From Acidobacteriaceae bacterium (GTDB taxonomy: Bacteria; Acidobacteriota; Terriglobia; Bryobacterales; Bryobacteraceae), in assembly GCA_019240405.1 (NCBI GenBank), contig JAFAYL010000024.1:1-64000 (forward strand): a stretch of DNA of 64,000 nucleotides. Reading direction: 5' to 3'. The notes beneath the pieces were generated by a model. That model ran no database searches and was not told the origin of the DNA. It was given only the letters and a program-made list of their open reading frames with translations. Of the stretch, positions 12,931 to 53,019 are shown in pieces (within the stretch, counting starts at the first letter, position 1; every line of letters begins with the position of its first letter). Both the position numbers and the translations under genes were made by a program.

Positions 12931-13496
12931 GCGTCGATTCGCAGACCACGAACCCCGATGGTCTGCGCCACCCGATTCTTAGGCAGCGTTTTCGACGGCG
13001 ATGATGCGCTGGCGCGTGACGGTGATGCGATGTTCGGGAGTTTCCGAGTGGATGTTTTGTAGAACCTGGTTGTCGACTTTCGCCTGCGCGAGCAAAATAT
13101 CCCATCTGTGGGTGTCCTGCTTGCGCTTTTCGGCTCTGAGCTTTACGAGGTCGTTGAGGCAGCGGTGGAAGGCACGATCGTTCGTGGTCTGATAGCGAAG
13201 GAACAGCGCGAAGCTTTCGTCATCGGCTTCGGCCAAAGCGGCATTCTGCAATCGAAGAGCGCGGCGGGTGAGCCAGTGATGCTCGGCCATTTTGTCGACC
13301 AAAATAGTTTCGGTCGGAGTGGCGGGCTGGTGCTCGTTGTGGAGCGCAGCCTTGAGTTCGTCGAATTCTTGTTGGGATTCGCAGGGAAGGACGGAAAAGC
13401 GGCCGCAGAAACCCCACTGAAGATTGTTGCGCGAGGAAATGGCTTTGCCTTTGGGCGTTTTGGGACCCGAGGAATGTTGCGCATTGGCGCGATTCG
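12931..13496 (-). repeat. Dispersed repeat block, copy 1 (gene body plus 3' hairpin)
   Basis: Aligns by eye to 45958-46597 almost throughout, including ~45 bp beyond the stop codon; lacks 75 bp present in copy 2. Confidence 0.88.
12941..12966. other. Conserved hairpin GCAGACCA-N10-TGGTCTGC, copy 1
   Basis: Perfect 8-bp inverted repeat 3' of the repeat gene; same stem at 45968-45993. Confidence 0.8.
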
Positions 13497-13521
13497 CGGT
13501 GATCTGAGCTGGCGTAGACAT
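12979..13521 (-). CDS. Dispersed-family small protein ('[18 protein letters not shown]'), copy 1
   Basis: [33 protein letters not shown]...; SD-like AAGGAG before ATG 13521. Near-identical at DNA level to 46005-46601. Confidence 0.8.
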   Translation of the reverse strand: MSTPAQITANRANAQHSSGPKTPKGKAISSRNNLQWGFCGRFSVLPCESQQEFDELKAALHNEHQPATPTETILVDKMAEHHWLTRRALRLQNAALAEADDESFALFLRYQTTNDRAFHRCLNDLVKLRAEKRKQDTHRWDILLAQAKVDNQVLQNIHSETPEHRITVTRQRIIAVENAA

Positions 13522-13733
13522 TGATAGTTGCTCCTTCGGAGCGGAATCTAGCATTTCGGGCAGGCGAAACAGAATGACCTGAGTTTCGATGGGCGTTTGT
13601 TTTCAAGCAGAAGAAAGTTTTGGGAATTTGTGAATGCGGTCGGGGCGTTCGGCGAGCGAGATGTAAAAGAGATGCCCTCGCTGACTGGAGATCTCGAACG
13701 CCGGGCCGTTTGCTGCGCAGCTAAAATCGGGCT

Positions 13734-45957: not shown

Positions 45958-46597
45958 GCGTCGATTCGCAGACCACGAACCCCAATGGTCTGCGCCACCG
46001 ATTCTTAGGCGGCGTTTTCGACGGCGATGATGCGCTGTGGAGTGACGGTGATGCGATGTTCGGGACTTTCCAGGTGTATGTTTTGTAGAACCTGGTTGTC
46101 GACTTTGGCCTGCGGGAGCAAAATATCCCATCGGTGGGTGTCCTGCTTGCGTTGTTCGATGGCTTGTTTGAGAGCAAGCTCACCGTTCTTGCGACGCTGC
46201 GATTCGAAGCCAATTTCCTGCTTACACTTTTCGGCTCTGAGCTTTACGAGGTCGTTGAGGCAGCGGTGGAAGGCGCGATCGTTCGTGGTCTGGTAGCGGA
46301 GGAATAGCGCGAAGTTTTTGTCATCGGCTTCGGCCAAAGCGGCATTCTGCAATCGAAGAGCGCGGCGGGTGAGCCAGTGATGTTCGGCCATTTTGTCGAC
46401 CAAAATAGTTTCGGTCGGAGTGGCGGGCTGGTGCTCGTTGTGGAGCGCGGCTTTGAGTTCGTCGAATTCTCGTTGGGATTCGCAGGGAAGGACGGAAAAG
46501 CGGCCGCAGAAACCCCACTGAAAATTGTTGCGCGAGGAAATGGCTTTCCCTCCGGGCGTTTTGGGACCCGAGGAATGTTGCACATTGGCGCGATTCG
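45958..46597 (-). repeat. Dispersed repeat block, copy 2 (gene body plus 3' hairpin)
   Basis: Near-identical to 12931-13496; carries 75 bp absent from copy 1 and lacks copy 1's N-terminus. Confidence 0.88.
45968..45993. other. Conserved hairpin GCAGACCA-N10-TGGTCTGC, copy 2
   Basis: Perfect 8-bp stem, between repeat gene copy 2 and typA. Confidence 0.8.
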
Positions 46598-46640
46598 GCG
46601 ATAGGAGATAGAGGCGTTCAAAACTGCCCTTTCGCTCCAT
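46005..46640 (-). CDS. Dispersed-family small protein, copy 2 (5' end altered)
   Basis: ...[29 protein letters not shown]...; matches copy 1 but canonical MSTPAQITA N-terminus replaced by [15 protein letters not shown]. Confidence 0.65.
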
Positions 46641-46752: not shown

Positions 46753-48315
46753 TTGAGCACTGCTTTCTACCGAGAGCTGAGGCACCGGTTTGCTCTAGGT
46801 ACCTTATGGCTACGCATTTGTGTGTGTGCTCAGTCAGCGGAGCGCTGGTTGTGGCTTCGTATCCGAAAGAATCCGTTCCGCGCTCTGCTTTCAGTAATCT
46901 TCGTTTTTCTTGGCTGGTACGTGTTTACGGAAGCGAGACGTGACGTGATCATCATTGAGGTGATCAGTGTGCCAAAGAAGTACGAAGAACTGGGCTTCAC
47001 GTCGGCTGTCATGACGCTGAGAGTCGTTGAACAGCTCCAGCAACTAGAACAGGCCGTTGAGAGTAGATCCACGAAAGATCGCTTAGCGCAGAACGCCGAT
47101 ATCGATGTACCTGATATCGAGGTGCCGGAAACGAAGCTCTCCTTGAAGACAATCGTGCAGCTCGTCCAGCAGGCTCTGCACGATGAGCCGCAGCACGTCC
47201 GCGGCGAGATTACCCGGCCGTGGGAGCAGAATGACTACGCAACCACAGATTCGGTTATCGTCTCGTATCACATTTATAAGGGCTCAGAATTCTTGCGGGC
47301 TGACGAAGAAGAATTTCATACTCAAGTGCCCGAAAAAGTCGTGCAGCAATATGCACAAGGCTTGTTGAAGAGATTAAATCCGTACCTTTGGGTTGTCTAC
47401 TTGCGATCGAATAGGAACGATCGTGCGGCGGCTTGGAGAGAGTGTCAATCAATAATCACCTCCACGTCGGATAGCCACTTGCTTGCGAAAGCCTACTCGT
47501 TCCTTGGCCTCATGCTCGCCGATGAGGGGAAGCGTGACGAAGCCATCGAGAAATACCGCAAGGCCATTGATCTCGACCCGAAACTTCTAATGGCATACAA
47601 CAACTGGGGCCTCGTACTCGCCGATCAGGGGAAGCGTGACGAAGCCATCGGGAAATACCGCAAGGCCATTGATCTCGACCCGAAATTTCCTCTGACGTAC
47701 AACAACTGGGGCCTCGTACTCGCCGATCAGGGGAAGCGTGACGAAGCCATCGAGAAATACCGCAAAGCCATTGATCTTGACCCGAAACTTCCGCTGGTGT
47801 ACAACAACTGGGGCATCGTACTTGCCGATCAGGGGAAGCGTGACGAAGCCATCGAGAAATACCGCAAGGCCATTGATCTCGACCCGAAATATGCTGCGGC
47901 GTACTACAACTGGGGCAACGTGCTCAAGGAGCAAGGCAAGCGTGACGAAGCCATCGAGAAATACCGCAAGGCCATTGATCTCGACCCGAAATTTCCTCTG
48001 GCGTACAATAACTGGGGCATCGTGCTCGCCGATCAGGGCAAGCGTGACGAAGCCATCGAGAAATACCGCAAGGCCATTGATCTCGACCCGAAATTTCCTC
48101 TGGCGTACTACAACTGGGGCCTCGTGCTCAAGGAGCAAGGCAAGCGTGACGAAGCCATCAAGAAATACCGCAAGGCCATTGATCTCGACCCGAAATATGC
48201 TGCGGCGTACTACAACTGGGGCCTCGTGCTCAAGGAGCAAGGCAAGCGTGACGAAGCCATCGAGAAATACCGCAAGGCTAAGGAAATTGATTCCGGGATT
48301 CGCATACCTGAGTAA
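46753..48315 (+). CDS. Membrane-anchored TPR protein with a near-perfect 34-aa tandem array
   Basis: N-terminal TM (LLSVIFVFLGWYVF), then eight GKRDEAIEKYRKAIDLDP units of 102 bp. Confidence 0.85.
   Translation: MSTAFYRELRHRFALGTLWLRICVCAQSAERWLWLRIRKNPFRALLSVIFVFLGWYVFTEARRDVIIIEVISVPKKYEELGFTSAVMTLRVVEQLQQLEQAVESRSTKDRLAQNADIDVPDIEVPETKLSLKTIVQLVQQALHDEPQHVRGEITRPWEQNDYATTDSVIVSYHIYKGSEFLRADEEEFHTQVPEKVVQQYAQGLLKRLNPYLWVVYLRSNRNDRAAAWRECQSIITSTSDSHLLAKAYSFLGLMLADEGKRDEAIEKYRKAIDLDPKLLMAYNNWGLVLADQGKRDEAIGKYRKAIDLDPKFPLTYNNWGLVLADQGKRDEAIEKYRKAIDLDPKLPLVYNNWGIVLADQGKRDEAIEKYRKAIDLDPKYAAAYYNWGNVLKEQGKRDEAIEKYRKAIDLDPKFPLAYNNWGIVLADQGKRDEAIEKYRKAIDLDPKFPLAYYNWGLVLKEQGKRDEAIKKYRKAIDLDPKYAAAYYNWGLVLKEQGKRDEAIEKYRKAKEIDSGIRIPE
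47528..48280 (+). repeat. 102-bp tandem repeat array (8 units) inside the TPR gene
   Basis: Recurring GGGAAGCGTGACGAAGCCATCGAGAAATACCGCAAGGCCATTGATCTCGACCCGAAA. Confidence 0.92.
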
Positions 48316-52338: not shown

Positions 52339-53019
52339 ATGTCCTCATACGCACAAATCCAAGCGAACCGTGCCAATGCTCACCTCTCTACCGGTCCGAA
52401 AACGCCGGAAGGTAAAGCCAAATCTTCTTTGAACGCAGTCAAAACCGGGCTCACCGGCCGCACCGTCCTGCTGCCAAGCGACGATACCGCCGCTTACCAG
52501 AAGCACGTCCAACGCTTCTTCGATCAATACAAGCCCGCCGGCGATGAAGAATCCGCTCTCACGCAATCGCTCGCCGACACCGAATGGCGCTTGCTCCGCA
52601 TCCCGTCACTCGAAATGGGCATCTACGCCATCGGCCGCCTCGCGCTTTCCAAACAGTTCGAGCACGAAGAAGACCCGCAAGTCCGCGCCTCTCTCATCGA
52701 AGCGCAAGTCTTCCTCAGCTATCGAAAAGACCTCAACAATCTGAGCATCCAGGAAGGCCGCCTGCGCAAGCAGCGCGAAAAAGATCAAGCTGAGCTACAA
52801 AAGCTGCAACACGAGCGTAAACAGCGCCGCGAGAATCAGATGACGCAAGCCTGGCAGCTCTATGACCAGGCTCTGAAGGCCGGCGCGGTGTTCGATGCTG
52901 CCGAATTTGGGTTCGAATTTTCAACTGAAGAAGTCGAGCGTCACGCCGCCGAGGTGAGCAAGAAGATGGCCATCTATAACCACACGTACTACGACAAAAA
53001 ACGGAACGGCGAACTGTAG
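52339..53019 (+). CDS. Dispersed-family small protein, divergent copy 3
   Basis: MSSYAQIQANRANAHLSTGPKTPEGKAKSSLNAVKTGL...; N-terminal motif shared with copies 1 and 2. Confidence 0.8.
   Translation: MSSYAQIQANRANAHLSTGPKTPEGKAKSSLNAVKTGLTGRTVLLPSDDTAAYQKHVQRFFDQYKPAGDEESALTQSLADTEWRLLRIPSLEMGIYAIGRLALSKQFEHEEDPQVRASLIEAQVFLSYRKDLNNLSIQEGRLRKQREKDQAELQKLQHERKQRRENQMTQAWQLYDQALKAGAVFDAAEFGFEFSTEEVERHAAEVSKKMAIYNHTYYDKKRNGEL

Follow-up and report, generated by a model that had tools for sequence, protein, structure and literature searches.

A dispersed family of gene-sized units with a recurrent left-edge motif in a genus of Acidobacteriota

How a small gene comes to lie, in nearly the same form, at separate places of a bacterial genome with no transposase at its side is the question raised by two blocks of the window, i.e., the whole stretch of 64,000 nucleotides analysed here, which is contig 14 of a 63-contig, 4.45-Mb Acidobacteriota-type genome (G000). 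An earlier note on this DNA had described the two blocks as matching almost base for base; the homology is real (93–96%) but not gap-free, positions 12931–13132 aligning with 45958–46158 at 92.6% identity and 13115–13496 with 46216–46597 at 95.6%, with copy 1 short by 75 bp. As the note had stated, the DNA flanking copy 1 and copy 2 is unrelated, and no transposase is found beside either, the adjacent genes encoding a SpoU methylase, a DUF218/YdcF protein, a SnoaL-like protein, TypA and a TPR protein. The placement of the blocks also holds, the homology beginning 2 bp past the ydcF stop codon for copy 1 and stopping about 34 bp short of typA for copy 2. Nothing in the window matched Rfam. Inside the TPR ORF next to copy 2 (46753–48315), a tandem array occupies 47506–48278 with a period of 102 bp, 7.6 copies and a 90% match.

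One small gene, a member of a dispersed family, underlies both blocks, each of which is a damaged copy of it; a third copy, intact and encoding 205 aa, lies on contig 5 (12.4–13.2 kb; 94–96% identity). The CDS of copy 1 (12979–13521, minus strand), which encodes 180 aa from MSTPAQ... to a C-terminus ...ENAA, the longest ORF reaching 13554, shows, against copy 2 and the contig 5 copy, an in-frame loss of 75 bp, apparently due to recombination between two 11-bp CGCAA(A/G)CAGGA repeats. Its leader (13522–13695, minus strand) is common to the contig 5 copy (90% identical in the last 100 nt ahead of the ATG) and contains a TTCACA box (13629–13634, minus strand), an instance of the family's left-edge motif of the TCACAA type. 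Since these two copies are alike up to about 175 bp 5' of the ATG (window ~13695), position 13521, previously taken as the upper limit of the unit, is a gene edge and not a unit edge. Just 3' of the stop codon stands a GTGG-tagged REP-type palindrome (12940–12971, minus strand), with which the shared part of the unit ends at 12931. The block of copy 2 (45958–46597, minus strand; 94.2% identity to the contig 5 copy over 641 bp) retains such a palindrome 3' of its stop codon (45967–45998, minus strand) and is truncated at its 5' end, where the leader, the native start codon and the first ~12 codons are missing; its ORF of 211 aa (46005–46640, minus strand) therefore has a chimeric start in foreign sequence, residues 1 to 12–14 deriving from the unrelated flank. 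The view that both copies had inserted cleanly is as such half right, copy 2 being without its 5' end. Two further 3' fragments lie on contigs 27 and 23.

Only two copies had been noted; the genome holds about 20 relatives of them, mostly more divergent. A protein search of G000 returned 26 matches at ~20 loci, which comprise singletons and four near-identical clusters, namely (i) cluster A, with the two window copies and the contig 5 copy, (ii) cluster B, a pair on contigs 28 and 30 with about 90% DNA identity, (iii) cluster C, with a member in the window (52339–53019, plus strand; 226 aa, C-terminal Ala-Ala lost) that is 88–92% identical in DNA to five copies dispersed over contigs 12, 23, 34, 35 and 37, and (iv) cluster D, on contigs 62, 57 and 32. 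Within these clusters, homology is restricted to the gene and its leader. On contig 12, a 260-bp internal fragment of a cluster C gene, with both ends missing (182072–182331), lies upstream of a full copy. Beyond G000, matches number 7–46 per genome in all 16 relatives of the genus and 0–15 in other genera of the family, and were present in one genome only of the sister family f3; a profile search of the phylum, whose first pass scored at most 10 candidates per genome, matched 6 of 297 genomes, G000 included. In a tree of 69 rows, copies group by genome, with 15 label changes for a possible minimum of 12 and a shuffled mean of 46.1 (0 of 200 shuffles as low as observed), and the family has therefore undergone expansion or homogenisation within lineages. 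Cluster A represents a single member, in three near-identical copies, of a large gene family expanded by lineage in a genus of Acidobacteriota.

In the 70 family ORFs extracted from 13 genomes, the typical unit is composed of a leader of 100–180 nt, one ORF of ~200–300 aa and a short 3' tail, and pairs within a genome are homologous from a point between about −100 and −180, counted from the ATG, to the stop codon or as far as about +55. A left-edge motif recurs: in nine genomes, the homology commonly begins at an (A/G/T)TCACAA box located 100–180 bp 5' of the ATG, and TCACAA is the most enriched hexamer of the leaders (31 of 69, for 5.5 expected from shuffles), while found in only 2 of 62 downstream and 2 of 62 far-upstream control regions. 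When within-genome pairs are aligned on the box (39 copies from 9 genomes), mean identity is 0.36 in the preceding 30 nt versus 0.70 in the next 30 nt, of which only the upstream value is unbiased because the downstream one served for selection; across the box of the close cluster B pair, identity is 1.00 downstream and 0.43 upstream. The edge does not lie at the box in every case, since the cluster A pair of copy 1 and the contig 5 copy has ~60 bp in common beyond its TCAC box and a few copies of genome G009 are alike beyond theirs, two of which have a further upstream repeat in common. Right edges vary and coincide with the REP palindrome in cluster A, with AACTGYGYCC ~50 nt past the stop codon in G009 (and a similar sequence in G002, G006, G012 and one G001 copy), with the stop codon itself in cluster B, G001, G005 and others, or with a position shortly before it in G016 (L220/L223). 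No terminal inverted repeat is common to all units, a weak likeness by eye (G-N-CACA / TGYGYC) being visible between the ends of the G009-type units; by eye, the left edge of the leaders bears no hairpin, and scans of three leaders or units for sigma-70 promoters and terminators gave nothing above chance. In G005 (L285–L287) and G001 (L289, L290), attenuator-like GC-rich hairpins followed by T runs are visible by eye between leader and start codon; a simple terminator scan of L285 and L289 did not report them. The TCACAA motif could have a regulatory role instead of marking a unit end; a CRP-type operator was considered and rejected, as TCACA occurs without a regularly placed TGTGA.

The encoded proteins follow the consensus MSTxAQIxANRANAQxSTGPKTxxGKAxSSxNxxxHGLxG...TExxLVxxMAQHxWLxxRA...LRYQTTHERAFHKCLNDLLKLRAEKRK..GFESQ, for which Pfam, NCBIfam and the PDB sequences gave no match, PHROGs gave none that was credible, and PDB and viral folds gave none at E ≤ 0.001; they carry no nuclease motif. 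AlphaFold2 predicts an all-helical chain folded as a hairpin, of which a long coiled coil is part (pLDDT 83), and leaves the small conserved N-terminal domain uncertain; the protein would probably bind DNA. Given a dN/dS of 0.02–0.31 for every close pair tested, the proteins are maintained by purifying selection. A C-terminal Ala-Ala, encoded by mixed codons, ends 50 of 64 complete family proteins versus 16 of 332 other ORFs (4.8%). The element that matters most in the ssrA degron of ClpXP is Ala-Ala-COO- (PMC7652416). By this sequence resemblance the family protein would be turned over rapidly, ClpXP probably keeping its amount low by way of the Ala-Ala end. Of note, a GFVSQ/GFESQ/GFVFS motif recurs in the C-terminal regions of several members, and a motif of this type is found several times within a single protein on contig 62 (4917–5714). 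The anatomy of the unit, with its TCACAA-type left edge, the Ala-Ala C-terminus of its protein and, in cluster A, a 3' REP, is new.

The relatives carry both ydcF and typA, the latter mostly adjoining a gene that reads as der/engA, and no family copy was found beside ydcF at the 14 relatives' loci with downstream sequence or beside typA at the 10 loci with upstream sequence. The insertions are therefore particular to the G000 lineage; the relatives' intergenic DNA is too diverged for an exact alignment of empty sites. No target duplication was seen by eye at the edges of cluster A and G009, where the right edges are uncertain. A large segmental duplication is ruled out by the unrelated flanks. 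The genes are thus dispersed as gene-sized units free of a transposase, as the earlier note had proposed, with unrelated flanks, copy-free ydcF and typA loci in relatives, lineage-specific expansion and a recurrent left edge. Its further suggestion that high identity reflects recent copying or gene conversion was a fair one, and both readings still stand. With a little better than an even chance, in our estimation, the family is a gene-sized, transposase-less mobile unit, mobilised either by the encoded coiled-coil protein or by a host enzyme. The unit would then move as DNA copies made by an enzyme with specificity for its left edge, which may be supplied in trans or may act together with the encoded protein. 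Gene conversion between copies also acts, or is mimicked, in some pairs.

The strongest rival of mobility is a family of lineage-specific paralogues that arose by occasional illegitimate duplication and were kept alike by gene conversion (concerted evolution), where selection would keep coding region and leader while the flanks eroded and where TCACAA would be a conserved distal regulatory site. The grouping of copies by genome, the purifying selection on coding regions and the many right edges that end at the stop codon all agree with it, as do several pairs in which the coding regions are similar but the leaders are not; for instance, L072 and L074 have a dS of 0.16 and leaders only 52% alike, and thus fit gene conversion of the coding region. 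Against it, copy 1 and the contig 5 copy (dS 0.115), L274 and L275 (dS 0.088) and the cluster B pair have wholly unrelated outer flanks and abrupt edges, which erosion of the flanks cannot explain, and the orthologous sites tested are devoid of family copies. We hold this account to be possible, with the odds against it; unit movement and gene conversion are in any case not mutually exclusive. An autonomous element of unknown type, in which the coiled-coil protein of ~200 aa would copy its own gene from TCACAA and limit itself through its Ala-Ala proteolysis tag, appears unlikely.

The palindrome GTGGCGCAGACCATCGGGGTTCGTGGTCTGCG, which closes all three cluster A units with one base different in copy 2, brings forward another explanation, namely that, through its 3' REP, the unit would be acted on by a Y1 HUH transposase of the REP/RAYT (TnpA_REP) type, the gene being a REP-linked passenger. 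The orthologue of the cluster A gene in G003 (79% protein identity) has the palindrome at the same place, with a GCGG tag and a compensating stem change (GACCA/TGGTC to GACGA/TCGTC, i.e., a CCA/TGG to CGA/TCG covariation), and GTGG palindromes stand within 130 bp downstream of 3 of 61 family copies for 0.06 expected, two of the three belonging to one subfamily. The pattern GTGGSGCAGRC..GYCTGCS occurs 15 times in G000 and up to 48 times in relatives, its reversed control almost never, and in relatives RAYT (Y1) genes are flanked by, or lie beside, GTGG palindromes, as at G014:C263:66–608 (RAYT 161–445, palindromes 66–87 and 587–608), G012:C103:6506–7097 and G016 contigs C3, C217 and C312. This suggests that a GTGG-tagged REP class exists in Acidobacteriota beside the GTAG and CGTC classes already described (PMC3733652). 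A REP array on contig 37 of G000 (46060–46331), just upstream of an acyl-carrier-protein-like gene and independent of the gene family, contains GTGG palindromes, four to five of them, set in direct order and separated by TTCTGAGCTTTTRTGG...CCCCAC spacers. Yet Y1_Tnp (PF01797), positive in 13 of the 17 genus genomes, has no match in G000; REP is absent from clusters B and D and from most relatives' units; the palindromes flanking RAYTs are short-loop, unlike the long-loop type of cluster A; and the fragment on contig 27 keeps a 3' gene end without any REP. With no Y1_Tnp in G000 and most units REP-free, we regard the REP as a cluster A passenger or terminator rather than as what mobilises the family, a role we consider distinctly improbable for it.

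Such compact single-ORF units might also be what is left of a phage, plasmid or integron cassette system, in favour of which a Planctomyces plasmid contains a single distant match to the N-terminal part; we give this origin very little credence, as viral contigs yielded one 28-residue match and no confirmed full-length relative, phage records no match, PHROGs no credible one and a plasmid search with copy 2 none, and as the copies are single and dispersed, forming no cassette arrays, with no attC-like pair noticed. LINE-like retrocopying, raised by the 5' truncation of copy 2 and of the fragments on contigs 27 and 23, finds no support in view of the fixed left and variable right edges found elsewhere (G016 L220/L223). 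A Helitron- or IS91-like rolling circle, raised by the 5'-TC start, the 3' hairpin and the lack of a visible target duplication, was rejected on inconsistent flanking bases and mostly hairpin-free units.

A first comparison is with mobile insertion cassettes (MICs, e.g., MIC231), at the ends of which stand inverted repeats from a known IS. The present units resemble MICs and other non-autonomous passenger-gene elements in being small, dispersed, provided with a non-transposase gene and presumably moved in trans, but have neither an inverted repeat in common nor an evident IS-derived end, and no target duplication visible by eye. REP/REPIN and RAYT systems share with them the tagged palindrome that closes cluster A, whereas the ORF here is unrelated; IS200/IS605-type elements have a Y1 transposase, which G000 lacks, and hairpins near both ends, of which the present units show only a 3' one, in cluster A. 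In soil Acidobacteria such as Solibacter usitatus, paralogues were reported to be mostly old and divergent, mobile-element genes excepted (PMC3174227); the present family likewise adds many paralogues to large soil genomes, but as near-identical dispersed copies of a non-transposase gene. This dispersed family is neither an artefact nor a known element.

Near-identical genes other than transposases can break Acidobacteriota assemblies, and in that of G000 four contig ends fall inside cluster C-type members (right ends of contigs 23 and 35, left ends of contigs 23 and 7). With the left-edge motif and the Ala-Ala tail as handles, further members of the family could be found, movement could be traced across strain collections and the protein could be put to bench tests. 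If the unit is mobile, a highly copied gene of a soil lineage spreads by machinery unrecognised in present annotation.
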